DNA of 34,817 nt from Candidatus Sumerlaeota bacterium. GTDB lineage: Bacteria > Sumerlaeota > Sumerlaeia > JABWBI01. Location of the stretch: assembly GCA_016928695.1 (NCBI GenBank), contig JAFGKF010000200.1, positions 1 to 34,817 on the forward strand, given 5' to 3'. The position numbers were made by a program, and so were the translations under genes. Position 1 is the first letter of the stretch. Each line of letters begins with the position of its first letter. This document shows positions 1,708 through 34,817 of this stretch, piece after piece. The notes beneath the pieces are model-generated. The model had not been told where the DNA came from. It saw only the letters and a list, made by a program, of their open reading frames with translations, and did no database searches.

Positions 1708-3228
1708 GTGAGACCCCTGATCATCGCCCTGATTCTCACCCTGCCCCTTGGCATGGCCCTGGCCGCCCCTGTCGAGGGGGCGGATTCGCCCGCCGCGCTG
1801 GAGGCGGAGATCGACGCCCTGATCGAGGCGGCGGCGCCCGAGGGCGTGATCGCCATCTGCGTGTCACAGCGCGAGCCCGACGTCGATCTGATCAGCAGGG
1901 AGGCCGACCGCCCGATGACGCCCGCCTCCAACAACAAGATTCACACGACGGCGGCGGCATTCCACTGTCTTGGGCCGGATCTCACGCTCACCACTCGGGT
2001 GCTGACCAACGGCGAGGTCGACGACAACGGCTGTCTGCGTGGCGACCTCATCATCGTCGGCGCGGGCGACCCGACCATCTCGGGGCGATTCAACGGCGGC
2101 AACGTCCTGCAGACCTTCGAGGCCTGGATGGCGGCACTGGAGGAGGACGGGATCCGCTCGATCTCGGGCGACATCATCGGCGACGACGATCTGTTCGACG
2201 ACGCCCTCATCGCCGACAGCTGGTTCATGCAGGAGCTCGGCGAGTGGTACTCCGCGGAGAACAGTGCGCTCTCCTTCAACGACAACTGCGTCGACCTGCG
2301 CTGGCGCGGCGCGGCGGCGCCTGGGAACCCGGCCGCGTTCACCATGATCCCACAGACCCGCTACCTGCAGGTCGTCAGCCGTGTGAACACCATGGCCGAG
2401 GGCTCGAGCACCGACCGCTACTATCACCGACAGCACGAGAGCAACCGGGTGGTCGTCAACGGCGGGATCAATGTGGGGCAGACGCGGACCGACTCAGCCA
2501 CCGTGCACAACCCCACGCTCTACACGGTCACCGTCCTGCAGGAGCTCCTCTCGCGCCACGGCATCACGGTGCTGGGTCGTCCCCGGGACATCGACGACCT
2601 GGATCGCATTGAGATCTATGGGAGCGGGACCCGGGAGCTGGCCTCGTGGACCTCGCCCCCGCTCAGCGAGATCTGCGACGTCATCAACCAGCGGAGCCAG
2701 AACTTCTACGCCGACATGGTGCTCAAGCTCATCGGCGCCGAGGTCGAGGGCGAGGGCTCCTTCGAGGCGGGAGCGCGCGCGGTGAGACGCTTCCTCGACG
2801 AGATCGGAGCGCTTCCCGAGGGCGACGACTGGGTGATGGTCGATGGATCGGGGCTCTCGCCGCTGAACCGCACGACAGCCCGCTGCCTCACCCGGGTTCT
2901 CCGCCACATGGACACCCGGCCTGACGCCGACATCTTCCGCTCGACCATGCCGCGCGGCCGCGCCGACCGCGGCTCGCTGCGCACACGGTTTGGACACTCG
3001 GATCGCCACATCGCCGTCGCCGATCAGATCCTGGGCAAGACCGGCTACATCGGCGGCGTCTGGTCGCTCTCGGGATTCATCACGAATCAGGCGGGGGTCG
3101 ATATGTGTTACTCGATCATCCTCAACGGCTACCGCTCCGAGGAAGTGCCCCCGCTGCGCATGATCGACGACATCGCGGTGGCCATCGCCGCCTCGACCTT
3201 CGAGGAGCAGGCACCACCGGAGGAGTGA
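1708..3228 (+). CDS. dacB: D-alanyl-D-alanine carboxypeptidase/endopeptidase (PBP4/DacB family, peptidase S13)
   Basis: ORF 1510..3228 with in-frame GTG at 1708 after AAAGGAG; signal peptide; MTPASNNKIHTTAAA (SxxK), SAENSALSFNDN (SxN) and GKTGYIGGVWSLSGF (KTG) motifs. Confidence 0.88.
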   Translation: MRPLIIALILTLPLGMALAAPVEGADSPAALEAEIDALIEAAAPEGVIAICVSQREPDVDLISREADRPMTPASNNKIHTTAAAFHCLGPDLTLTTRVLTNGEVDDNGCLRGDLIIVGAGDPTISGRFNGGNVLQTFEAWMAALEEDGIRSISGDIIGDDDLFDDALIADSWFMQELGEWYSAENSALSFNDNCVDLRWRGAAAPGNPAAFTMIPQTRYLQVVSRVNTMAEGSSTDRYYHRQHESNRVVVNGGINVGQTRTDSATVHNPTLYTVTVLQELLSRHGITVLGRPRDIDDLDRIEIYGSGTRELASWTSPPLSEICDVINQRSQNFYADMVLKLIGAEVEGEGSFEAGARAVRRFLDEIGALPEGDDWVMVDGSGLSPLNRTTARCLTRVLRHMDTRPDADIFRSTMPRGRADRGSLRTRFGHSDRHIAVADQILGKTGYIGGVWSLSGFITNQAGVDMCYSIILNGYRSEEVPPLRMIDDIAVAIAASTFEEQAPPEE

Positions 3229-3229
3229 G

Positions 3230-4753
3230 ATGCGGATCAGCCTGCTGGCCACGCTCTTCGGCGTGTGCCTTTTCACCTCCTGCGCACTTCAGCGAGGCAC
3301 CGGGCCCACCGTGAGAGAGATCGGCGACGGACTCTGGAGCGTGACGCTCCGCTTCACCCCCGAGGGGGAGTTCGAGCGCGTCCACCTCGCCGGGGAGTTC
3401 CTGGGATGGGACCCCGAAGGGCTCGAGATGCTCGACGAGGACGGCGACGGCACCCACGAGGTGACGATCGAGCTGCCCATGGGGCGCCATCTCTACAAGT
3501 TCACGCTCGACGGCGGCGAGCAGTGGTTCTCCGATCCGCTCAATCCCCATCGCACCCCGGATGGCTACGCCAACTCGATTCTCTATCTCGGCGTCGATCC
3601 CGATGACTACCCCGAGGACCAGGAGCCCCCCTCGCCGCCCGCGCCCGATCGCCCCTGGCTCCCCACCGAGCAGCAGACCGAACCCACACCGCGCGATGAG
3701 CCCAATGTGCGGTTCGAACTCATTGACGACGGCTTTGACGAGGTCTTTGTCACAGGTGACTTCAATGGCTGGACAGGGCAGCTCGACCAGATGGAGCGTG
3801 GCGACGATTCCGGTCGCTGGACGCTGAGGCTCCGGCTCGATGAGCCGGTCTGGAGTCGATATCGCTTCGTCGTCTGGCGCGGAGACGAGTGGTCCACGAT
3901 CCGTGATCCGGAGAATCCTCAGATCTCCTTCGATGGTCATCCCATGGATTCGGTGGTCTTCACCCCCGGCGCGGATCGAGGCGTCGTCGAGATCCTCAGC
4001 GAGAGTCTCACCGCCTCGGTGTCGACATGCGAGGCGAGAGCTGTCTGGGCGTGGCTCCCGCCGGCCTATTTCACTGAGACCGACCGCCGTTTCCCCGTGC
4101 TGATCATGCATGACGGGCAGAATGTCTTCGATGACCCCCTCAATCCCTTCGGCCATGGCGGATGGCATGTGAACACCATCGCCGAGGAGCTGATCGCCGA
4201 GGGGCGCATCGAGCCGTTCATCCTCGTCGCCGTTCCATGCAACGGAGAGCGGCGCATGGAGGAGTACGGGATGGACGAGGATGTCATGGACGCCTCGGAG
4301 CATCCCTATGCGCGTTATCTCATCGACGACGTCCTCCCCCTCGTCACCGCGCGGTATCGAACGCTCACCGGACCCGCGAGCACCTCGGTGATGGGCTCCT
4401 CGATGGGCGGGATCATCTCGTTCTATCTGGCCTATCATCACCCCGATGTCTTCGGGCAGGCCGCGTGCCTCAGCCCGGCGTTCATGATCGGCGACGCGTC
4501 GGAGCGGACGCTGCTCGACCTCGTCCGCGCCGAGGGCAAGCGCCCTGTCCGCCTCTACCTCGACAGCGGCACCGCGGGCGAGTGCGAGGACGGCGCCCCC
4601 CAGACGCGCGAGATGCGCGATCTCCTCATCGAGAGCGGCTGGGTGCTCGGCGACGATCTCGTCTGGCACCAGGAGGAGGGCGCCGCCCACAGCGAGCGGG
4701 CCTGGCGCGCACGCGTCTGGCGCCCGCTGGAGTTTCTGTGCGGGGAGAGGTGA
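3230..4753 (+). CDS. Putative lipoprotein esterase with two N-terminal AMPK-GBD/CBM48-like E-set domains and an esterase-D/Fes-like alpha/beta hydrolase domain
   Basis: LFTSC lipobox-like N-terminus; two E-set segments (VHLAGEFLGWDPEG...YKFTLDGGEQWFSDPLNP; VFVTGDFNGW...YRFVVWRGDEW); VLIMHDGQNVFDDPLNPFGHGGW and GSSMGG nucleophile elbow. Confidence 0.85.
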   Translation: MRISLLATLFGVCLFTSCALQRGTGPTVREIGDGLWSVTLRFTPEGEFERVHLAGEFLGWDPEGLEMLDEDGDGTHEVTIELPMGRHLYKFTLDGGEQWFSDPLNPHRTPDGYANSILYLGVDPDDYPEDQEPPSPPAPDRPWLPTEQQTEPTPRDEPNVRFELIDDGFDEVFVTGDFNGWTGQLDQMERGDDSGRWTLRLRLDEPVWSRYRFVVWRGDEWSTIRDPENPQISFDGHPMDSVVFTPGADRGVVEILSESLTASVSTCEARAVWAWLPPAYFTETDRRFPVLIMHDGQNVFDDPLNPFGHGGWHVNTIAEELIAEGRIEPFILVAVPCNGERRMEEYGMDEDVMDASEHPYARYLIDDVLPLVTARYRTLTGPASTSVMGSSMGGIISFYLAYHHPDVFGQAACLSPAFMIGDASERTLLDLVRAEGKRPVRLYLDSGTAGECEDGAPQTREMRDLLIESGWVLGDDLVWHQEEGAAHSERAWRARVWRPLEFLCGER

Positions 4754-4768
4754 CAACGATGGAGCACA

Positions 4769-4806
4769 GGCGCCCTCGCCGGTTTCCATTCGCCGGCGAG
4801 GGCGCC
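4769..4806. terminator. Strong intergenic hairpin (GGCGCCCTCGCCGG / CCGGCGAGGGCGCC)
   Basis: Perfect 14-bp inverted repeat with a 10-nt loop directly after the esterase stop codon; no clear U-tract. Confidence 0.5.
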
Positions 4807-4855
4807 GGCGCTCCATATGAGGGGCGCGGCACCACGTCACCGACCATCCCCTCTC

Positions 4856-4887
4856 TTGACAGGACCGCCCCGCCGCTCTGATATCAT
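4856..4887 (+). promoter_or_regulatory. Putative sigma70-type promoter (TTGACA-N20-TATCAT)
   Basis: Perfect TTGACA at 4856-4861 and TATCAT at 4882-4887 just upstream of the CDS at 4908; the 20-nt spacer is longer than usual. Confidence 0.45.
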
Positions 4888-4907
4888 CGTCGGATCGGAG
4901 TGATGAG

Positions 4908-6164
4908 ATGGCGATGATCTGGTATCCCGACCTCGACAGACCGCGGCTGCGGCCGATCGAGGCGATCCCCATCGAGCACGAGGGGGAGACGCTGATCGGG
5001 CTGCACGACCCCTCGGGTCTGGCCAAAAGTGGACTGGCCGTCTCGCCCCCGATGTTTTTCGCTCTCACGCTGATGAACGGCCTGACATCGATCGATCAGA
5101 TCACCGCGGCTTTCAAACAGCAGTTCGATGTCGAGCTCCCCGAGGGGACGCTGCGGGAGTTCGTCCTCCAGCTCGACGAGGGCTGCCTCCTCGAATCGAT
5201 GCACTTCCGGCAGCACCGCGAAGAGCGCCTCGCCGCCTACCGCGCGCTGCCCGCGCGCCCGATGACCCACGGCGGCCGTGGCTACCCGACCGATCCCGAG
5301 GAGTTCACCGAGGCGTTCAACTCGCACTTCACGGCGGAGGGCGGACCCGGCTCCCCCCCCGAGCCGGAGAGTGGACCCGAGATCCGCGCGCTCATCGCAC
5401 CGCACATCGACTTCGAACGCGGGGCCATCAACTACGGCTGGGCGTACCAGGCACTCGGCTCCGGCGCGACGCCGGAGACCGCCGTGATCCTCGGCACATC
5501 GCACCAGCCCTGCCGCCATCCGCTCACCCTCACACGACTCGGATTCGAAACCCCTCTGGGCACACTCGAGCCCGAGACCGGGTTCATCGAGGCCCTCGCG
5601 GAGCGTCTCGATTACGATCCGTTCGAGGATGAGCTGATCCACGTCATGGAGCACTCGGTGGAGTTCCAGGCGGTGGCACTGCGCCATCTCTTCCCCGACG
5701 CCTCGGAGATGCGCATTGTCCCCATCCTGTGCGGCTCCCTCGCGGACGACCCCACGGAGGATGGAGTGGCGAGGGGAGACCGATTTGAGAGAGCCATCGG
5801 GGCTCTGATCGAGACCATCGCCTCATGGGATCGCCGCGTCTGTGTGATCGCGGGCGCGGACCTGGCGCATGTGGGCCCCCAGTTCGGGGACGAGCAACCC
5901 GTCAGCGAGGAGCAGATGGCCGAGGTGGCGTCACTGGACAGGGAGGCGCTGAACCTCGCCGCCGCGGGAGATGCCGAGGGATTCCTGGAGTCGTTCGCCC
6001 CCACCCACAACGCGCGGCGCGTCTGCTCCGTCGCGTGCATGTACACCGCGCTGCGATGCCTGCCCAGCCTGGAGGTGGAGCGGGGTCGCGTGCTCCACTA
6101 TGCACAGAGCGTCCACCCGAGCCAGCTGCTCGCGGTGACGCATGCCAGTGTGGCGTTTCCGTGA
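4908..6164 (+). CDS. MEMO family protein (AmmeMemoRadiSam system protein B-like) with an extra N-terminal helical domain
   Basis: ALIAPHIDFERGAINYGWAYQAL, VILGTSHQPC, EHSVEFQAVALRHLFPD and VIAGADLAHVGPQFGD are MEMO family motifs. Confidence 0.85.
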   Translation: MAMIWYPDLDRPRLRPIEAIPIEHEGETLIGLHDPSGLAKSGLAVSPPMFFALTLMNGLTSIDQITAAFKQQFDVELPEGTLREFVLQLDEGCLLESMHFRQHREERLAAYRALPARPMTHGGRGYPTDPEEFTEAFNSHFTAEGGPGSPPEPESGPEIRALIAPHIDFERGAINYGWAYQALGSGATPETAVILGTSHQPCRHPLTLTRLGFETPLGTLEPETGFIEALAERLDYDPFEDELIHVMEHSVEFQAVALRHLFPDASEMRIVPILCGSLADDPTEDGVARGDRFERAIGALIETIASWDRRVCVIAGADLAHVGPQFGDEQPVSEEQMAEVASLDREALNLAAAGDAEGFLESFAPTHNARRVCSVACMYTALRCLPSLEVERGRVLHYAQSVHPSQLLAVTHASVAFP

Positions 6165-6183
6165 ATGGGAGGAGAGAGGCGGA

Positions 6184-6477
6184 TCACTCCCCGCTGAGCT
6201 TCCAGCCCTCGCCCTTGACGTACTTGTAGAGCTTGCGGCCCTTGTCGCGCGCCTGGAGGTACGTGCGGATCTTGTGCTTCCACTCCGCCTGAACGGCCCA
6301 CTTGCTCGACTGCCAGTAGTGCTTCCGCCAGGGAGTGCAGGCATCATCGCGTTCGATCTCGAGGTAGATGTCCTCGATGTCGATCGGCTGTTGCTCCGAG
6401 ACGATGCGGTGCAGTGCATCGCGCACTTTCTTGGTCAAGAGGCGGAGCTGATGGGCGTCGAGTCCTTCCGCAGACAC
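6184..6477 (-). CDS. Hypothetical small protein (97 aa)
   Basis: Compact ORF with protein-like composition (YLEIERDDACTPWRKHYWQSSKWAVQAEWKHKIRTYLQARDKGRKLYKYVKGEGWKL) in an otherwise empty gap; no family recognised. Confidence 0.6.
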   Translation of the reverse strand: MSAEGLDAHQLRLLTKKVRDALHRIVSEQQPIDIEDIYLEIERDDACTPWRKHYWQSSKWAVQAEWKHKIRTYLQARDKGRKLYKYVKGEGWKLSGE

Positions 6478-12328: not shown

Positions 12329-12727
12329 TCAGCCGAGCTGCTCGATGCGCTCCATCGGCGAGATGATGTCGGTCAGGCGGACGCCGAAGCGCTCATTGAC
12401 CACGACGATCTCGCCCCGGGCGACAAGCTTCTCGTTGACGAGCACCTCGAAGGGCTCACCGACGAACTTCTGCAGCTCGATGACCGATCCCTGGCCGAGC
12501 TGGAGCAGATCGTTGATCAGCATGCGGGTGCGGCCGATCTCCACCCGGACCTGCAGAGGGATGTCGAGGAGGAATTCGAGGTCGATCGGCTTGCTCTGCC
12601 CCCCAGACGGCTCATCCTGCAGGGGCTGATCCATCTCGGACTCGGCCTGCCCCTCGGCCGTGGCGACCGGCCCCTCGGCGCTGGTCTCCTCCTCCGGGGT
12701 CTCGCTGACGCTCTCATTCTCAGACAT
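12329..12727 (-). CDS. fliN: Flagellar motor switch protein FliN
   Basis: FLLDIPLQVRVEIGRTRMLINDLLQLGQGSVIELQKFVGEPFEVLVNEKLVARGEIVVVNERFGVRLTDI is the classic FliN/SpoA domain; located after fliM. Confidence 0.95.
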   Translation of the reverse strand: MSENESVSETPEEETSAEGPVATAEGQAESEMDQPLQDEPSGGQSKPIDLEFLLDIPLQVRVEIGRTRMLINDLLQLGQGSVIELQKFVGEPFEVLVNEKLVARGEIVVVNERFGVRLTDIISPMERIEQLG

Positions 12728-12733
12728 GACATC

Positions 12734-13717
12734 TCACCTCTTGGGATCGACCAGGCTCTCGACCTGGACCGCGCGGCAGCCCCGGTGCACGCCGATGCGT
12801 CCGCGGAATTTCAGGATGTCCTCGACATAGACCTCGCAGGGCGTGCTGCAGTCCTCGTCGAGGATGATGGTGTCGCCGACCTTGAGATTGAGCAGCTCAC
12901 GCCCCGTGATCTGTGAGCCACCGAGATGAACCATGAGGTCGACATCGACCTCGCTGATCTGATTGCGCAGGCGGTTCATCCACGTGCTGTCGAAGTCCAC
13001 GGTCTCCGTCTGGAAGCCGGCGCGGAGCTTCTCGCGGATCGGCTCGAGCGTGGAGTAGGGCAGGCAGAACGTCATGGTGCCCGAGGCCTCCTCGAACTCC
13101 AGCTCGAGGGAGATCGTCACCACCACGTCGCTCGGGGGCACAATGTTGACAAACTGCGGGTTGATCTCGGATCGGACGTGGGTGATGTCCAGAGGGCTGA
13201 TGGCCTGCCAGGCCTCCTGGTAGTCGTCGATCGCGATGTCGACGACCTTCTTGATCAGCCGCTGCTCGATGACGGTGAAGTCCCGGCCCTCGAGCTTGTA
13301 GTGGGTGCCCCCGCTGCCCCCGAAGAAGGTGTCGACGAAGACGAAGACGAGCCTGCCCTCGAGCACGAGAAGGCTCAGCCCCCTCAGGGGATCCATGCGG
13401 ATGAGATGCAGACTGGTCGGCAGCGGCAGGTTCCGCATGAAATCGCCGAATTTCCGCAGGTCGGTGCCCAGAACCGAGACGTCGACCACCCGGTGAAGCG
13501 CGGTGGAGATCGAGGTGCGGAAGAGGCGCGCGAACCGGTCGTGCACGATCTCGAGAGTCGGCAGTCGGCCGCGGATGATGCGATCCTGGTTGGCGAAGTC
13601 GAAGGAGGAGGGACCGAAGGTCTCCTCCTGGGGGATCTCGGTCTCGACCTCGATCTCACCCCCCGAGATGCCCTTGAGCAGGGCATCGACCTCATCCTGG
13701 CTGAGGACTTCGCTCAA
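12734..13717 (-). CDS. fliM: Flagellar motor switch protein FliM
   Basis: MSEVLSQDEVDALLKGISGGE N-terminus and SFDFANQDRIIRGRLPTLEIVHDRFARLFRTSIS. Confidence 0.96.
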   Translation of the reverse strand: MSEVLSQDEVDALLKGISGGEIEVETEIPQEETFGPSSFDFANQDRIIRGRLPTLEIVHDRFARLFRTSISTALHRVVDVSVLGTDLRKFGDFMRNLPLPTSLHLIRMDPLRGLSLLVLEGRLVFVFVDTFFGGSGGTHYKLEGRDFTVIEQRLIKKVVDIAIDDYQEAWQAISPLDITHVRSEINPQFVNIVPPSDVVVTISLELEFEEASGTMTFCLPYSTLEPIREKLRAGFQTETVDFDSTWMNRLRNQISEVDVDLMVHLGGSQITGRELLNLKVGDTIILDEDCSTPCEVYVEDILKFRGRIGVHRGCRAVQVESLVDPKR

Positions 13718-13763
13718 CTGTCAATCCTCCGACGGTCCGGCGTTCAGCGCGCTCTCAGTGCAA

Positions 13764-14267
13764 TCACTGGACCAAGAACTCCTCGAAGAGCACCCGGCGG
13801 ATGGTCCCCTGGCGCAGATGCTGCTCAATCCTCTGCCGGATCTGGTCTTTGACCAGCTCCTTGCCAGCGACGGTGTTGATGTCCTCCATGACCAGGCCGG
13901 AGAGATAGAGCAGCACGGTGTCATGAATCAGGGGCATCCGCTCCATGATGACAGCCTCCATGGCGCTGTCCTCGAGCTCGAGGGCGATCCGCACCCGCAG
14001 GTAGCGCGATCCCGCGGACTCGTTGAGGTTCACGGTGAACTCCTCGAGCTGCACAATGGTTCCAAATTCCGGGATGGCGTCGGGGGGCGGCTCCGGGATC
14101 TCCGCATCATCTCCCCCGGCACTCATGAAGATCTTGGCGCCGGCGGCGACTCCGCCGATCACCACGATGGCCCCGAGCACCGTGATGATGAGCTTCAGGG
14201 GGGACTTCTTCCTCGGAGCGGGCGTCGCCTCCTCCTCCGGGGTCTTTTCCTGCTGCTCTTCGGCCAT
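13764..14267 (-). CDS. fliL: Flagellar basal body-associated protein FliL
   Basis: N-terminal TM segment, FTVNLNESAGSRYLRVRIALELED, and position between motB and fliM. Confidence 0.9.
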   Translation of the reverse strand: MAEEQQEKTPEEEATPAPRKKSPLKLIITVLGAIVVIGGVAAGAKIFMSAGGDDAEIPEPPPDAIPEFGTIVQLEEFTVNLNESAGSRYLRVRIALELEDSAMEAVIMERMPLIHDTVLLYLSGLVMEDINTVAGKELVKDQIRQRIEQHLRQGTIRRVLFEEFLVQ

Positions 14268-14282
14268 GGTATCTCTCCGTTC

Positions 14283-15065
14283 TCAGCCCGCGAGGGGCGC
14301 GAATAGAATATCCGAAAGCGTGGTGTCGATGACGATCTCAACGCGCCGGTGGCGCGGATCAGCGAGGTCGATCACCTCCCCCTCCTCGTCCCTGAGCGGA
14401 CACTGGCTCCCCCGCCCCACGAGGGTGAGAGTGCGCTCGTCGAGGGGGGGACTGAGCCCGATGAGGTGCTGCAGCACCGAGTCGGCACGGCGGAGGCTCA
14501 GAGACATCTGCGCCTGGGGATCGCCCCCCTGATCGGGTGCTCCGGAGGCGTGCCCCTCGATGCGCATGGGGAAATGCATCCGCCGCAGAAGAGGGCAGAG
14601 CGAGATCAGCATCTGCTGCGCCTCGGAGGTGAGCTCGGCGTCATTGCGCCCGAAGGCGAGATCGGACCGAAAGCGCACGATGATCCCCTCGGGGGTCCGT
14701 GTGATCTCGATCAGGTCCTCATTGCCCTGGATCACCTCGAGAAGCTTGAGGAGCTCCTGATACGCCTCGCTCTCCGTGGTGATGGGGCTCTCCTCGTCCC
14801 CCCCCAGCGCTGGGGGCTCGGAGATCGCCGGGATCACCGTCTCGTTCTCGACAAAGGCCCGCCCCCCCAGCTCGCTCACACTGGGCTCGCGCATCATCAT
14901 GCCGAAGGCCTCGTCGATCTGCTGCTGATCCATGGAGGACATGGTCAGGAGCAGAACAAAGAAGGTGAGCAGGAGGGTCAGGAGATCCGAGAAGGTGATC
15001 ATCCAGGCATTCGGATCGATCTCCCGGACCACGATCTCCTCTTTGGGCTTCTTGGCCATCGTCAC
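14283..15065 (-). CDS. motB: Flagellar motor stator protein MotB (OmpA domain), TM aspartate present
   Basis: DPNAWMITFSDLLTLLLTFFVLLLTMSSMD transmembrane and plug region, plus OmpA/MotB peptidoglycan-binding domain (RIEGHASGAP...LSLRRADSVLQHLI). Confidence 0.9.
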   Translation of the reverse strand: MTMAKKPKEEIVVREIDPNAWMITFSDLLTLLLTFFVLLLTMSSMDQQQIDEAFGMMMREPSVSELGGRAFVENETVIPAISEPPALGGDEESPITTESEAYQELLKLLEVIQGNEDLIEITRTPEGIIVRFRSDLAFGRNDAELTSEAQQMLISLCPLLRRMHFPMRIEGHASGAPDQGGDPQAQMSLSLRRADSVLQHLIGLSPPLDERTLTLVGRGSQCPLRDEEGEVIDLADPRHRRVEIVIDTTLSDILFAPLAG

Positions 15066-28722: not shown

Positions 28723-29103
28723 ATGGCACTGACGAATGAAGAGATCCTCGAGGCTCTCAAAGAGAAATCCCTGATGGAGGCCGCCGAGCTCGTCAAGATG
28801 ATCGAGGAGGCCTTCGGTGTGAGCGCGGCCGCGCCCGTCGCCGTCGCCGCCGTCGCCGGTGGCGGCGCAGCCGCCGAGGCGGCTGAGGAGAAGACAGAGT
28901 TCGACGTCGTCCTCGCCGACATCGGCAGCGAGAAAATCAAGGTCATCAAAGAGGTCCGCGCCATCACCGGCCTGGGTCTCAAGGAGGCCAAGGAGAAGGT
29001 CGAGAGTGCCCCGACGGCTCTGGCCGAGGGCATCTCGAAGGATGACGCCGAGAAGATGAAGAAGCAGCTGGAGGAGGTCGGAGCGAAGGTCGAGATCAAG
29101 TGA
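28723..29103 (+). CDS. rplL: 50S ribosomal protein L7/L12
   Basis: Alanine-rich hinge, [42 protein letters not shown]. Confidence 0.99.
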
Positions 29104-29131: not shown

Positions 29132-29165
29132 CACCCCGGTCCCCCGCGGACCGGGGTGTTCTCAT
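29132..29165 (+). terminator. Rho-independent-like terminator after rplL
   Basis: Perfect 11-bp stem CACCCCGGTCC/GGACCGGGGTG with 5-nt loop, followed by TTCTCAT. Confidence 0.8.
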
Positions 29166-29458: not shown

Positions 29459-30787
29459 ATGGGATCTGCGCGATTTGCCCTGCTTCTGCTCTTCATTCTT
29501 GTGTCACATCCAATCGCATCTGAGATCTTGCCAATCCCCCCAGGGACACCGAGGTACGCAGTGCAGCTTGCAGCATTTGAGACCGCTGCAGAGGCGGAAC
29601 AGGCGGCAGAGGATTTTCGGGAGCTTGGACTCTCTCCCGTGCACACTTTGCAGATCGACAGCTGGCACAAGGTGCTGTTCGGGATCTTCTCATACCGTGC
29701 AGATGCCACTCTGCACAGCCACGCAATCCGGAGTGCCGGAATTGCCGAGAGTTTCGTGGTGTCACTGGATGTGCTCCCCTTCAGCGACCGCCCCTCATCC
29801 AGCGCGGAGATCAGCAGCCCACTTCCTCCTATCTTCACACTCGAGGTGGCATCGGCTCGGGATCTTCCGATCTCTGATCTGCACGGCAATCCCACCTATG
29901 AAGAGCTGGAGCGAATTGACCGCGAGGAGAGCGATGAGCGATATCGCCAGGAGCTTTTGGCCGTGCTGGACCAAGTGGAGGATGACGATCCAATCACAGG
30001 ATACGCGCTTGTGAATCTGGCGATCCTCGACATCGCCAGTGGAGAGCGTGACGCGGCACTTGCCCGCCTGCTGCCCGTGGCGAATGGTGAGGTCGCGTCC
30101 GCCGCATCCCACAGGGTCATGGCCATGCGCCGCGTCGCATGGCTGCTTCACAATCACAGCGTCGATAGGCTCCGAGCGTATCAGGCCTACACAGAGCTGG
30201 AGAGATTCACATGCAGCGAGTCGCTGAGAGGCATCTGCGTCAGAGATAGGGCTGGCCTTCTGATGGAACTCGCACTCTCCAACATCGGCACACTGGAGGA
30301 GTGCCGTGACCTCTGCGAGCTGGGCCTGGCCGCCGTGGCCCCCGACCAAACACAGACAAGGGCAGTCCTCAGGCTGATTGCCATGGAGACACTCGCCCAC
30401 CAGATGCGTCACTCCGAAGCCCTTGATGAGGCAACGGCGTTGGCCGCCGATCTCGAGGGGGACCCGCAGGTGGAGCGCGAGTGGTGGATGTCGCGCATCT
30501 GGATTGGCCGCTGTGCGGCTGATCTCGGTGACTGGGCACTGGCGCGGGAGACTGCCCGCTCCATCTTGGATGAGGCCCCTGAGGACGCACCCCAATTCGC
30601 CGGATTTCCTGTCCGAGCCGAGGCGATGTATCTGCTCGGCCTCTCACTCGGTTGTGAGGGGGACCGTGAGGCGAGCCGCCAGATCCTGGAGCACCTGATT
30701 GAGAACCACGGCGACACTCAGAGTGCGAGACAGGCCCGAGAGGCGCTCCAGAGCCTGGAGCGAAACTGGTCACTGGACGAGAACTGA
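29459..30787 (+). CDS. Secreted SPOR-like domain protein with TPR-like helical repeats
   Basis: GAGGTGAGGAC Shine-Dalgarno; signal peptide; YAVQLAAFETAAEAEQAAEDFRELGLSPVHTLQIDSWHKVLFGIFSYRADA (SPOR-like); long helical C-terminus ending SARQAREALQSLE. Confidence 0.75.
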   Translation: MGSARFALLLLFILVSHPIASEILPIPPGTPRYAVQLAAFETAAEAEQAAEDFRELGLSPVHTLQIDSWHKVLFGIFSYRADATLHSHAIRSAGIAESFVVSLDVLPFSDRPSSSAEISSPLPPIFTLEVASARDLPISDLHGNPTYEELERIDREESDERYRQELLAVLDQVEDDDPITGYALVNLAILDIASGERDAALARLLPVANGEVASAASHRVMAMRRVAWLLHNHSVDRLRAYQAYTELERFTCSESLRGICVRDRAGLLMELALSNIGTLEECRDLCELGLAAVAPDQTQTRAVLRLIAMETLAHQMRHSEALDEATALAADLEGDPQVEREWWMSRIWIGRCAADLGDWALARETARSILDEAPEDAPQFAGFPVRAEAMYLLGLSLGCEGDREASRQILEHLIENHGDTQSARQAREALQSLERNWSLDEN

Positions 30788-30797
30788 GGACAACGGG

Positions 30798-31436
30798 ATG
30801 AGTGATACAGAAATGGGACAGGCCAAGCGAAAGCCTCCTGGAACCAGTGGGCCAAGAGCCCCTGCTCCCGAGGGCCAAGACCAGGGACTTACAGCCAACG
30901 AAACCATCATGCCCAGCAGCGCGTCCACCGATGAGGAGAGAGAGAGCTGTCGCCTGCCTCGCCGCTCATTTCTGATCGCAGGTGTGGCGCTCATCCTTGC
31001 GGCAGATGGCATTCAGCTCCTTCGCCCCCTCCGGGCCGCCACCCCGAGCGGAGACAGATGCAGGTCGAGCACTCTGACCAATGTCTGCGACGGAGCATAT
31101 GGCGTTCCGAACAACTGCACCCAGTGGGACAATGGCTACAACACATGTGTGGGCAACAACCACTCCAACACATGTCTCGGGTCCCCCGGGGGAGGGGGAG
31201 CGAATGTCTGCCACGGGGGAGCCACAGGTGGTGTGAACCGCTGTGGCGCCTCAGGCAATCCGACGGGAAGCAATGTTTGTGAGTCGCGCACCGGAGTCGC
31301 AAATGAGTGTCAGGGTGGCACTCCCACAGCACCCTCAAATGTCTGTGCCGCGATTCCTGGCCAGGGCTCAACCAATGTGTGCAATCCCCCCGCAGCCCAC
31401 GTGTGCCGACCTTCCACAGCGGATGTGACAGTGTGA
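30798..31436 (+). CDS. Tat-signal-bearing Cys-rich protein with an N-x-C repeat array; candidate radical-SAM-modified precursor
   Basis: CRLPRRSFLIAGVALILAADGIQLLRPLRAATPSG twin-arginine-like signal, then 12 Cys, 10 of them as N-x-C, spaced 8-12 residues, rich in Gly/Ser/Thr/Pro/Asn. Encoded upstream of a radical SAM/SPASM gene. Confidence 0.8.
   Translation: MSDTEMGQAKRKPPGTSGPRAPAPEGQDQGLTANETIMPSSASTDEERESCRLPRRSFLIAGVALILAADGIQLLRPLRAATPSGDRCRSSTLTNVCDGAYGVPNNCTQWDNGYNTCVGNNHSNTCLGSPGGGGANVCHGGATGGVNRCGASGNPTGSNVCESRTGVANECQGGTPTAPSNVCAAIPGQGSTNVCNPPAAHVCRPSTADVTV
31059..31406 (+). repeat. Coding repeat array of twelve Cys units (consensus x(6-10)-N-x-C)
   Basis: DRC RSSTLTNVC DGAYGVPNNC TQWDNGYNTC VGNNHSNTC LGSPGGGGANVC HGGATGGVNRC GASGNPTGSNVC ESRTGVANEC QGGTPTAPSNVC AAIPGQGSTNVC NPPAAHVC. 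Confidence 0.9.
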
Positions 31437-31474
31437 TCCAGTGGTGATCTCCTGATCTGAAAGGAATGAGCGAC

Positions 31475-32500
31475 ATGAACATCTCTGCGATGCATCTCTT
31501 CACTGTGGGGATGGTGCTCTTTTCCCCCCTCCACACGATGGCCCAATCACTCCCTGAGCGAGCCCTGGACACACAGCATCTGATGGGGATTCCGGTGAGT
31601 CGTCTCATCACTGAAACGCAGTCCTCGCCCATGTCTCAGATACACTCCATTTCCCCCGATGGGAGATGGATGCTCCTCTGCGACTCTGCCCTGAAGACTG
31701 TCGATCTATGCAATCTGAGCACTGGGGAAATCACACCATGGCCACCAGACGCGGGGCGCATGGAGATGCTCCACCACATGACCTGGTCGCCCACTGGTTC
31801 ACGGCTACTTGCATGGGCGATTCCCCATGGGGAGCAGGGCAGCGCTGGATCAGGGCCCATGATCATCTGCGCATCGCCGGATGGTGGTTTCGAGGCCCGC
31901 TTCCACTGTGCTTGGCAACCCGTGGCCATGATCTCGGACACGGAGATCCTGGTGCTCTCGGCGGATTATGACAGGGTGGCTCTCATCACACTTGAGGGCG
32001 ACCGCCCATCACTGCCACATGTGCTGCGAGTTGAGGGAGTTGAGCAGGTGGGGTATCTCAGTGAGGGGAGATGGGATGAGAACAAACTCTACATCGAGCG
32101 CCCCCTGTGGGAGCTCGGTCCTCCGGGGAGCCCCTTTCTCCAGGAGCTGTGCCTGGCCGATGTCAATGACGAGCGGACAGTGTTGACCCTGACACCTGTC
32201 GCGTCGCGTGAGACATCGGTGCCTCTCTTTCAGCTGATGCAGCCAGATCCGACATCCAATCGCTGGGCCACGGTGATCCGCAGCGAAGAGGATGACATGG
32301 CCCGATGCTTCCTTCTCGATGACCCCAGCCAAGATCCCGTGACAGGGGACCTCCTCATGAGCACCAATGGATTCATCTATCTCAGCTGTTGGAGCGCGGA
32401 CGGCACCCGCCTGATCTTCGACGGGGGCGAGACTCTGTTTGAGACCCCGCAGACCTTTGACTACCTGCGTGAGATGGTGATCTCCAGTCCTCTCAATTGA
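31475..32500 (+). CDS. Secreted beta-propeller-like (TolB/PD40/WD40-like) protein
   Basis: AAGGA 9 nt before ATG 31475; signal peptide MNISAMHLFTVGMVLFSPLHTMAQ; repeated propeller-like blades (SISPDGRWMLLCD, MTWSPTGSRLLAWA, SCWSADGTRLIFDGG). Confidence 0.7.
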   Translation: MNISAMHLFTVGMVLFSPLHTMAQSLPERALDTQHLMGIPVSRLITETQSSPMSQIHSISPDGRWMLLCDSALKTVDLCNLSTGEITPWPPDAGRMEMLHHMTWSPTGSRLLAWAIPHGEQGSAGSGPMIICASPDGGFEARFHCAWQPVAMISDTEILVLSADYDRVALITLEGDRPSLPHVLRVEGVEQVGYLSEGRWDENKLYIERPLWELGPPGSPFLQELCLADVNDERTVLTLTPVASRETSVPLFQLMQPDPTSNRWATVIRSEEDDMARCFLLDDPSQDPVTGDLLMSTNGFIYLSCWSADGTRLIFDGGETLFETPQTFDYLREMVISSPLN

Positions 32501-32521: not shown

Positions 32522-33856
32522 ATGGGGGGGGAATCACGTGGACCACAGGGTTTGATCCTCTATGAGGATCACCTGGGACGTGGCACACTTCTGCTCATTC
32601 CATCGGCGGAATACTCCCCCATGTTCATCCCGAGCCGTGACCCAAGGGAAGTCCTTGAGTGGTTCAGGAGAGCAGTCAACTCCTCCCCCGATGCTGCCGA
32701 ATGTGGGGGTCCGGCACTCAGTGGGCTGCCCCACTCTGATGTGCTGAGCCAACACCTGAATGTATCGACTGTTGGGGAGAGCAGCCGGAGCTCATCTCTC
32801 CCTCTGGTGGTGAACGCCTGCGGTGGGGTGACAATGGAGCAGGCCCTGTCAAGCGCCCACAGACTCTCTCAGATCTGGGGGCCGGATGACACGCCGTCCA
32901 CATGGCATCTGACGCTGCTCGGTGTGGCCAAACCACCGGGTCCGCAGGAGATTCACCGCTGTCTCCTGGCATTGAATGAGCTCCTGCCCCGTGCCGGGGA
33001 CGGTGATAGACCCCCGACCCTCACACTTGGCCTGACACTGACAGAGTCCATCGATCTCAGTCTCCTCGATGAGCTCACCCAGATCCCCAATCTGCGACTC
33101 TTCTTTGACGCCGAGCACCTGCGAGACCAATGGGGACAGATCACCCAGCGTCCACCGCAGTGCCTTCGCAAATTGTCGGAGCTCAGTGATGAGGGATTCT
33201 CAATGCCCTGTCGTCTGGTGCCATCGCAGTCGGACATTCGGTCTCTGGCACAGATGGTGAATCTTATGGACAGCATCTCTCGGGGGGCCAGGGCACTCAT
33301 CGCGCTCCCTCACGCCGGGATCACCACAGATGGGGATGTGGATGAAATCACATCGGCACTTGAGGATCAGCTGGAGACGATCTTGATGAATGTGGCCCTC
33401 ACGCCCTGGTCCATCGAGCCCCTGGCCGCTGTGGCACGCGCACTCATGGGAGAGGGGCCGGTGGGGGGCCAGCTCGAGCAATGGGCACACCACTTTGCCA
33501 TCGAATGCAATGGGGCCATCCACGGCCTTGGGAATCCCCATGGTCCCATCCTGGGCAGCGGCCCAGAGCATTTGCGGAGACCCGTGGAGCGACTCAGGGC
33601 GGCTCTCAGTGGGGGGCGTGGCCCCGATGCTCATCCCCGCTGCAGGCACTGCAGCTGGCTGCCTCTGTGCGACACTCGGGTGATGATTGATCCCTGGGGA
33701 GACATCGATCAGCTCAGAGGGGACCTGCAATGCGCCATGCGTCTGCCTCTTTTCAGAGCCCTCGCACAGCGGCTGTGCGATGAGATTTTGAGCGAGCAAT
33801 CCCCCAGGCTTCTCTCCGATGAGAGACCACCGCTGAGTGGAGCTGTGCTCAGATGA
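32522..33856 (+). CDS. Degenerate radical-SAM-like protein lacking CxxxCxxC, with partial SPASM-type C-terminal Cys motif
   Basis: C-terminal HPRCRHCSWLPLC gives C-x2-C-x5-C as in SPASM domains, with later LQCAMRLPLF; central alternating strand/helix region reads like a partial TIM barrel; no CxxxCxxC. Overlaps the downstream radical SAM gene by ATGA. Confidence 0.6.
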   Translation: MGGESRGPQGLILYEDHLGRGTLLLIPSAEYSPMFIPSRDPREVLEWFRRAVNSSPDAAECGGPALSGLPHSDVLSQHLNVSTVGESSRSSSLPLVVNACGGVTMEQALSSAHRLSQIWGPDDTPSTWHLTLLGVAKPPGPQEIHRCLLALNELLPRAGDGDRPPTLTLGLTLTESIDLSLLDELTQIPNLRLFFDAEHLRDQWGQITQRPPQCLRKLSELSDEGFSMPCRLVPSQSDIRSLAQMVNLMDSISRGARALIALPHAGITTDGDVDEITSALEDQLETILMNVALTPWSIEPLAAVARALMGEGPVGGQLEQWAHHFAIECNGAIHGLGNPHGPILGSGPEHLRRPVERLRAALSGGRGPDAHPRCRHCSWLPLCDTRVMIDPWGDIDQLRGDLQCAMRLPLFRALAQRLCDEILSEQSPRLLSDERPPLSGAVLR

Positions 33857-34817
33857 CACCCTCTGGTCCCATGGTGAGACCTGAGCGACACAGTCGCTCC
33901 TCCCTGCCTCGCCTCGCTCCGATCAGCAATCTGGATCTGGACGTCACTGAGAGATGCAATCTCCGATGTATCTATTGCTTCAAGGGTGCCAAGGGGGAGA
34001 GGGACATGCCCCTCTCTGTTGGGAAGGCCGCTGTTGACTGGCTGATGGAGGCATCCGGCGACACGACAGATCTTCAGATCAATTTCATGGGTGGTGAGCC
34101 TCTCCTGTGTTTTCGAGAACTGCTCGCACCCCTGGTGCAATACGGCCACCGCAAGGCGAGATCTTTGGGCAAGGCCATCACGTTCACCGCAACGACCAAT
34201 CTGACCCTGGTGACCCAGGAGATGGTCGATCTCTGGGATCGCTTCAATTGCGGATGGCTGTGCTCCATCGATGGCACACCTGAGATTCAGAATGCTCAGC
34301 GCCCTTTCGCCGGTGGAGGGGGAAGCGCCTCGGAGGCTGAGCGAGGGGCGAGGTTGATACTCAGAACACGACCCCATCTCTCGGTGCGGAGCACTATCCA
34401 TCCCTCTCACGTGAAGGCGCTGGCAGAGTGCTTCCGTCACCTGATCCATCTGGGATTCCCACTTGTCATCATGGCCCTCTCAGACACCCATCTCTGGAGC
34501 GGCAGGAAACTCACATTGCTGGAGGAACAGCTGGAAAAGGTCCGCCTCGAGATCACAGAGCATCTCCGGCGCGGATGCCGCGCCGCCCTCTCTGGTTTCG
34601 ACTACATGATCAGTGAGATTCTGCTTCCGATGCGGGAGGGGCGAGACCTCAGTCCCATCCCCATGAGCTGTGGTGCGGGGAGAGGCTCAGCGATGATCGA
34701 TCCAGCGGGAACGCTGTGGCCCTGCCATCGCTTCAACAGCGCGGACAGAGACACGGGAGCGACTGGGGCCCACTCACTCGGAAATCTCCACGGGGAATTC
34801 AAAGACTCTCTCCAGAG
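33853..34817 (+). CDS. Radical SAM/SPASM (anSME-like / peptide maturase) enzyme, 3'-truncated by window end
   Basis: My translation (absent from the ORF track because no stop is reached): LDLDVTERCNLRCIYCFKG (CxxxCxxC), DLQINFMGGEPLL, and C-terminal MSCGAGRGSAMIDPAGTLWPCHRF (SPASM/anSME-type). Confidence 0.92.
   Translation, partial: MTPSGPMVRPERHSRSSLPRLAPISNLDLDVTERCNLRCIYCFKGAKGERDMPLSVGKAAVDWLMEASGDTTDLQINFMGGEPLLCFRELLAPLVQYGHRKARSLGKAITFTATTNLTLVTQEMVDLWDRFNCGWLCSIDGTPEIQNAQRPFAGGGGSASEAERGARLILRTRPHLSVRSTIHPSHVKALAECFRHLIHLGFPLVIMALSDTHLWSGRKLTLLEEQLEKVRLEITEHLRRGCRAALSGFDYMISEILLPMREGRDLSPIPMSCGAGRGSAMIDPAGTLWPCHRFNSADRDTGATGAHSLGNLHGEFKDSLQ

Follow-up and report, generated by a model that had tools for sequence, protein, structure and literature searches.

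The described systems closest to the locus analysed here are NxxcA/NxxcB of Streptococcus, freyrasin (PapA/PapB) of Paenibacillus polymyxa, QhpD/QhpC of quinohemoprotein amine dehydrogenase, of which QhpC is the gamma subunit, and SCIFF with the maturases CteB and ScfB. NxxcA contains a Cβ-thioether joining Cys23 to Asn20, and freyrasin carries six Cys-Asp S-Cβ bonds (PMC8326336). PapB closes Cys-x(0-6)-Asp rings, and does so to completion with 1-5 intervening residues; its Arg372 is modelled close to the substrate carboxylate, and the R372A variant is inactive (PMC9413430). QhpD joins Cys to the methylene carbons of Asp or Glu (PMC8172795).

The window (the whole 34,817-nt stretch analysed) is one complete contig, C194, of a 4.17-Mb assembly (G000) that is 92.8% complete. 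Between rplL and rpoB it carries a cassette of five genes on the same strand. The first (29459..30787, + strand) encodes an exported SPOR-domain/TPR protein of 442 aa with an N-terminal hydrophobic signal and Pfam matches to SPOR (1e-8) and TPR_6 (4e-7). The stop codon of this gene is separated by 10 nt from the ORF of the precursor, or substrate protein (30798..31436, + strand; 212 aa), which has a GAGGA ribosome-site-like sequence upstream and gave no match in Pfam or NCBIfam. An exported propeller-like protein of 344 aa (31466..32500, + strand) follows, with a signal peptide recognised in its N-terminal sequence and a Pfam PD40 match (2e-4) just above the gathering score. Next is a partner protein of 444 aa (32522..33856, + strand), whose gene overlaps the start codon of the radical SAM/SPASM maturase gene (33853..34817, + strand) by 4 nt. 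The window includes the first 321 of the 425 aa of the maturase; the gene leaves the contig, and the remainder was completed from G000:C118 (L003:5513-5908, - strand), the join between C194 and C118 resting on a single exact overlap of 87 identical bases.

The N-terminal region of the precursor, which includes an additional Cys51 outside the core, leads to a TAT-type signal, RRSFLIAGVALILAADGIQLLRPLRAA (residues 55-81; 30960..31040, + strand), assigned by motif only, i.e. RRSFL and then a hydrophobic stretch. The core array (31041..31433, + strand) starts with residue 82, at the end of this signal, and the first-pass annotation had placed its start at the same coordinate. In the translation of 30798-31433, the core Cys residues are at positions 88, 97, 107, 117, 126, 138, 149, 161, 171, 183, 195, and 203, with spacings of 9, 10, 10, 9, 12, 11, 12, 10, 12, 12, and 8, and are joined by linkers rich in Gly, Asn, Thr, and Ser. 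The corresponding tripeptides are, in order, DRC, NVC, NNC, NTC, NTC, NVC, NRC, NVC, NEC, NVC, NVC, and HVC. The translation matches exactly the earlier description of 12 core Cys at 8-12 residue spacing, ten of them in N-x-C units and the end units being D-R-C and H-V-C.

Asn occupies position -2 at 10 of the 12 core Cys residues; 100,000 composition-preserving shuffles gave at most 7. In a second shuffle test, none of 20,000 shuffles reached the number of Asn at -2 found in the window (10/12) or in a related array from genome G013 (18/21; see below). Offsets other than -2 are nowhere comparably fixed in these two arrays, and the linker positions are not conserved. No tandem repeat was found at the DNA level within the array, and the codons of the motif differ synonymously (AAT/AAC for Asn, GTC/GTT/GTG for Val, and TGC/TGT for Cys). 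Hence, the motif appears to be maintained at the protein level rather than to stem from recent DNA duplication, and by sequence the array looks like an older one kept in this way.

The array differs in arrangement from the known substrates. No offset after Cys carries a fixed Asp, and the Cys-x3-Asp units of a PapB-type substrate are absent. The Asn-x-x-Cys (NxxC) motif is also absent, the spacing being N-x-C in both G000 and G013. Finally, the 12 core Cys residues extend over about 120 residues, unlike the six Cys in about 45 residues of SCIFF.

The maturase contains a CxxxCxxC motif at residues 35-42 and a full seven-Cys SPASM domain (C273-x12-G-x4-C291, C337-x2-C340-x5-C346-x3-C350, C369). 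The cassette thus combines the genes by which ranthipeptide systems are recognised, namely those for a SPASM maturase with three 4Fe-4S motifs and for a Cys-rich precursor. The top NCBIfam match of the 321-aa fragment was PapB (NF047865; 1e-55) with 189.3 bits against a cut-off of 340 bits, and three related maturases described below scored 237.6, 230.8, and 263.8 bits, also below this cut-off. By the family cut-off, the window enzyme is not a PapB-family member. For all four maturases, the families ranking after PapB were the QHNDH, nif11-like, and SCIFF maturases. The window enzyme scored 110 bits against the SCIFF maturase family TIGR03974 (cut-off 425), 98 bits against the CXXX-repeat family TIGR04115, 91 bits against CcpM, and 54 bits against CefB (NF038107). 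The TIGR04115, CefB, and CcpM systems resemble the window in having a SPASM maturase next to regularly repeated Cys but differ in the repeat motifs, and their scores are far below that of PapB. The closest solved structure is that of the SCIFF maturase CteB (5wgg; 1.2e-50). The SCIFF maturase has an N-terminal recognition region, whereas the window enzyme lacks a leader-binding domain of its own at the N-terminus and has only about 25 residues before the barrel. No RRE-type recognition domain was matched by Pfam in the partner protein.

When 40 genomes of the phylum were searched with the enzyme, few close relatives were found. The only N-x-C locus found besides the window is in G013, a genome from a different family of the class. 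Its contig C129 encodes, in order, a TAT-type precursor, a 428-aa protein in the position of the partner, and a radical SAM enzyme 34% identical to that of the window; another copy of the enzyme is on a second G013 contig. The window and G013 precursors share 33% identity (1e-9 pairwise) in an alignment that is composition-biased. In the G013 array, 18 of the 21 core Cys are in N-x-C units. The number of units therefore varies while the motif is kept, as the homologue check proposed in the first-pass annotation was to establish.

A second arrangement is found in G001, a genome from the window's own family. Contig C18 encodes a SPOR/TPR protein, a TAT-type precursor, and a PapB-like radical SAM enzyme, and the SPOR/TPR homologue, just upstream of the precursor, is 26% identical (1e-16) to that of the window. 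In this array, D-x-C occurs at 23 of the 29 core Cys and N-x-C at none, despite the presence of 12 Asn residues in the core. Lack of conservation of N-x-C, which the earlier reading had named as evidence against itself, was thus seen only as a replacement of Asn by Asp at the same position. Only the presence of Asx at position -2 from Cys is shared by the window, G013, and G001 arrays.

The same replacement bears on a reading of the Asn in N-x-C as a site of N-glycosylation type. N-x-C matches a known minor sequon of eukaryotes; bacterial sequons, however, need Ser or Thr. Moreover, neither Pfam nor NCBIfam identified an oligosaccharyltransferase in the cassette, and the G001 relative has D-x-C without any N-x-C. 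N-glycosylation was rejected on the basis of the Asn to Asp exchange; it is largely refuted and highly improbable.

All three precursors have a twin-arginine motif and a hydrophobic segment (RRSFL in the window, RRHFL in G013, and RREFL in G001, where the segment ends with ASA). No TAT profile was matched in the Pfam and NCBIfam searches. Judged by these motifs, TAT export of the window precursor is likely. Many proteins exported by TAT are first folded with cofactors in the cytoplasm, so this route would also suit a metal-binding or disulfide repeat, in which Cys and the Asx side chains serve as ligands and the radical SAM enzyme acts elsewhere or on few residues. In both N-x-C and D-x-C, an oxygen ligand and a thiolate would face the same side of an extended chain. 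Such a repeat is nevertheless unlikely, as a PapB-like radical SAM enzyme directly adjoins the arrays at the two N-x-C loci, the D-x-C locus, and a D-F-x-C locus (see below), the His or Cys-x-x-Cys pairs typical of metal sites are absent, the Cys residues are evenly spaced, and their numbers in G013 (21) and G001 (29) are odd. Where the first-pass annotation proposed a multiply modified or metal-binding peptide, modification is well supported, if indirectly, by the adjacent PapB-like radical SAM/SPASM enzyme, the N-x-C array of G013, and the D-x-C array of G001; metal binding is the less probable of the two.

The D-F-x-C locus is in G020 (L016 7661-8536), where an array directly precedes another PapB-like radical SAM enzyme. 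Phe is at position -2 in 16 and Asp or Asn at position -3 in 15 of its 24 Cys, mostly giving D-F-x-C, a D-x-x-C counterpart of the NxxC motif with the same spacing. Asp is also present at position -1 in 11 of the 24, which makes the acceptor in G020 ambiguous. The precursor has no TAT motif.

Position 372 of PapB can be located in the related enzymes from the SPASM cysteines. The AC1 cysteines of PapB are C352, C370, and C421 (PMC10470005), and by the numbering of Cys370, Arg372 lies two residues past the second SPASM Cys. Arg is present at this position in the enzymes of G000 (Arg293), G001, and G020 and in both enzymes of G013, as well as in three QhpD-type enzymes, which are known or annotated users of Asp or Glu. 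Two ScfB-type enzymes and CteB, for which the known acceptor is Thr, have Gln. Ser and Gln were found in the paralogues of G000:C70 and G019, respectively, and among 30 further related SPASM enzymes in which the motif was readable, only 4 had Arg. Conservation of Arg supports a predicted Asx-type acceptor for all four arrays, as a correlation over few lineages. In the phylogenetic tree, the G000 enzyme clusters with the two from G013 in one clade (100/98); separate long branches inside the same wider group lead to the D-x-C and the D-F-x-C enzymes. Thus, the Asx array was not simply inherited by close descent, and Asx is seen in more than one maturase lineage.

These data allow a sactipeptide-type modification to be weighed, in which the same enzyme would join the Cys sulfur to the α-carbon of Asn at -2 or of variable neighbours, Asn serving for recognition only. 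Sactisynthases, too, belong to the SPASM radical SAM enzymes, and the known sactipeptide acceptors include Asn (PMC8326336). However, the PapB, QhpD, and SCIFF families outscore the sactisynthases (76 bits for RumMC and 189 bits for PapB with the window enzyme), the Arg of PapB is conserved, and an acceptor specified by its functional group, Asn or Asp, fits an activated carbon beside the carbonyl group. Formation of α-carbon bonds is therefore considered improbable.

Another possibility is that Asx-x-Cys is the recognition unit for a different radical SAM reaction, such as epimerisation, hydroxylation, or the formation of a C-C bond or of a bond with a linker residue. SPASM enzymes are diverse, the similarity to PapB amounts to about 190-264 bits only, and PapB rejects Asn as an acceptor, an Asp to Asn change abolishing the ring. 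The last finding also weighs against a thioether to Asn in the window, and implies that the N-x-C enzymes must differ from PapB despite the conserved Arg, choice of the acceptor requiring more than this residue. Yet, a second fixed partner is unlikely, since the linker positions are not conserved, and Cys is, apart from Asx, the only invariant residue of the unit. A different reaction is thus doubtful. Retention of position -2 while Asn and Asp interchange is as expected of an Asx acceptor, and, between the modification site and the recognition element that were both offered for Asn in the first-pass annotation, the former is the most likely reading, the exchange supporting Asx as the reacting residue.

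The preferred explanation, held with moderate confidence, is that the system is ranthipeptide-like and generates Asx-x-Cys S-Cβ thioethers on an exported protein. The protein encoded by the ORF at 30798-31436 would be its substrate, and the adjacent radical SAM enzyme very probably acts on the array. In the cytoplasm this enzyme, probably aided by the partner protein, would take hydrogen from the β-carbon of each Asn; this carbon would then be bonded to the thiol sulfur of Cys two residues on, with loss of 2 H per unit. Asx at -2 as the acceptor and an S-Cβ bond are favoured on balance. Each N-x-C or D-x-C unit would give a 10-membered ring, as counted from the bond graph: three Asn atoms (Cβ, Cα, and C), three backbone atoms of x, three Cys atoms (N, Cα, and Cβ), and S. 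About ten small rings, or as many as eleven should Asp86 of DRC also react, would thus be distributed along a flexible chain of Gly, Ser, Thr, and Asn. The stapled protein would be exported by TAT after modification. Points that weigh against this explanation are the PapB scores of all four maturases, each short of the cut-off, the single further N-x-C locus, the dissimilar partners of the two N-x-C loci, the ambiguous acceptor and missing TAT motif in G020, and the absence of a leader-binding domain at the N-terminus of the enzyme.

Compared with the described systems, the predicted rings resemble that of NxxcA, which also has Asn at a fixed distance upstream of Cys beside a SPASM radical SAM enzyme (PMC8326336). 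The NxxC spacing is x2 and a short peptide receives one ring, whereas here the spacing is x1 and 10-18 units are present in a TAT-type exported protein. Freyrasin shares with the window the nearest maturase family, repeated Cys-Asx units, and the conserved Arg372 position but its Asp acceptor follows Cys by x3, its maturase rejects Asn, and its six rings are in a short peptide without a TAT signal. QhpD/QhpC is similar in that Cys-Asp/Glu thioethers are formed in a protein, the maturase family ranks second or third, and Arg is kept; its three rings are individually placed in a folded subunit with no regular array, and QhpC has no N-x-C. That the acceptor follows Cys in the PapB and QhpD substrates stands against the proposed order, in which it precedes Cys as in NxxcA. 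SCIFF and its maturases CteB and ScfB have in common with the window a Cys-rich substrate, a ranthipeptide maturase, and the closest solved structure, 5wgg, but differ in the Thr acceptor, Gln at the Arg372 position, and six Cys within 45 residues. The window system, as read from these features, appears to work like a ranthipeptide system and is not a PapB, NxxC, or SCIFF member by what defines those groups. A literature search with thin coverage of subscription journals found no radical SAM enzyme or thioether combined with an N-x-C or D-x-C motif, which is weak evidence of novelty.

If the proposal is true, radical SAM thioether chemistry serves to staple a repetitive exported protein at ten sites or more, and the spacing from Asn to Cys is the shortest known to us. 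The natural N-x-C/D-x-C pair would then raise the question of how ranthipeptide maturases select a carboxamide or a carboxylate with the same Arg, and the cassette would provide an array substrate for many rings in one chain.

The partner protein matched nothing in Pfam or NCBIfam. Its residues 215-383, ending with CRHCSWLPLC, weakly match the C-terminal half of radical SAM/SPASM proteins (profile score 31.5, shuffle maximum 20.3), and it is possibly a degenerate radical SAM/SPASM relative or a RiPP recognition component. AF2 models of the window and G013 partners were of low confidence and not usable (mean pLDDT 41 and 47, respectively); three strands and a helix were predicted, also with low confidence, at the N-terminus of the window partner, and Foldseek with the models gave no match at E<=0.001. 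The two partners had no detectable pairwise sequence similarity convincingly above shuffles. As a query across the phylum, the window partner retrieved no relative and the G013 partner retrieved only G013 copies.

SPOR domains bind peptidoglycan, and the occurrence of SPOR/TPR proteins at two of the loci makes an envelope location plausible. The SPOR/TPR protein is a probable cell-wall-associated partner of the stapled protein, which would probably remain in the envelope and might lie beside it at the cell wall; the chances of an envelope or wall location are about even. SPOR/TPR proteins form a multi-copy family in the phylum, and the other copies have no adjoining Cys array (no further array in 32 regions inspected). 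Downstream of the D-x-C radical SAM gene in G001 (L015 4289-7936) are genes for a second TPR protein, which matches SPOR weakly, and for a secreted protein with beta-lactamase2/golvesin domains, again pointing to the envelope. The preferred guess at the biological role is that of a stapled envelope protein with a structural or protective function. More tentatively, and with some doubt, the product may be a protein-sized, TAT-exported envelope polymer with ten to more than twenty consecutive Asx-x-Cys β-thioether rings made by a PapB-like lineage, the acceptor being Asn in the window and G013 or Asp in G001 and the function structural rather than that of a small antibiotic or signal; its source would be an uncultivated bacterial class.

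Outside these loci, no relative of the precursor was retrieved with it as a query from the genome contig collection. A search of the same contigs with the radical SAM enzyme gave 80 loci (best identity 28%) with no adjoining Asx-x-Cys array, only partial patterns. When viral contigs were screened at the DNA level for N-x-C and D-x-C, the hits were nearly always low-complexity or out-of-frame repeats that had no radical SAM gene with them. At L022 (7181-7918), a PapB-like radical SAM enzyme with Arg at the Arg372 position is closely preceded by a Cys-repeat precursor made of CxxxC units, of which roughly one in three has D/N-x-C. On the phage contig L357 (IMGVR_UViG_3300031555_003080; 12347-12970 and 12986-14997), a regular SDTC array with TYxESL repeats is followed directly by two radical SAM ORFs, the first of which is not PapB-like (26 bits); the array ORF possibly encodes a phage-encoded modified repeat protein. 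The G000:C70 contig (L017, about 2897-4728 and 4732-6240, - strand) encodes a second PapB-related radical SAM enzyme and then tandem paralogues of about 300 aa, which share 'SRPLAMA.AA.GVGG.GAQG.N.GSN' and could be its substrates.

The cassette is bordered upstream by rplL (28723..29103, + strand), which encodes ribosomal protein L7/L12, lies outside the system, and has an orthologue in 35 of the 40 genomes; downstream, rpoB is about 200 nt past the radical SAM gene on C118. The distance from rplL to rpoB is about 6.2 kb here and about 52-370 nt in 19 of 29 other inspected loci of the phylum. In the remaining 10 of the 29, rpoB is also outside the 1.5-kb flank of rplL, and the idea that the site is unique was dropped; insertion between rplL and rpoB is unusual but neither unique nor diagnostic. 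The G+C content of the cassette (0.604) is below that of the remainder of the window (0.662), which fits horizontal gain. Soon after rplL, a perfect 9-bp GC-rich stem-loop (CCCCGGTCC...GGACCGGGG; 29134-29155) is followed by only a weak T run and perhaps ends the ribosomal transcript ahead of the cassette.
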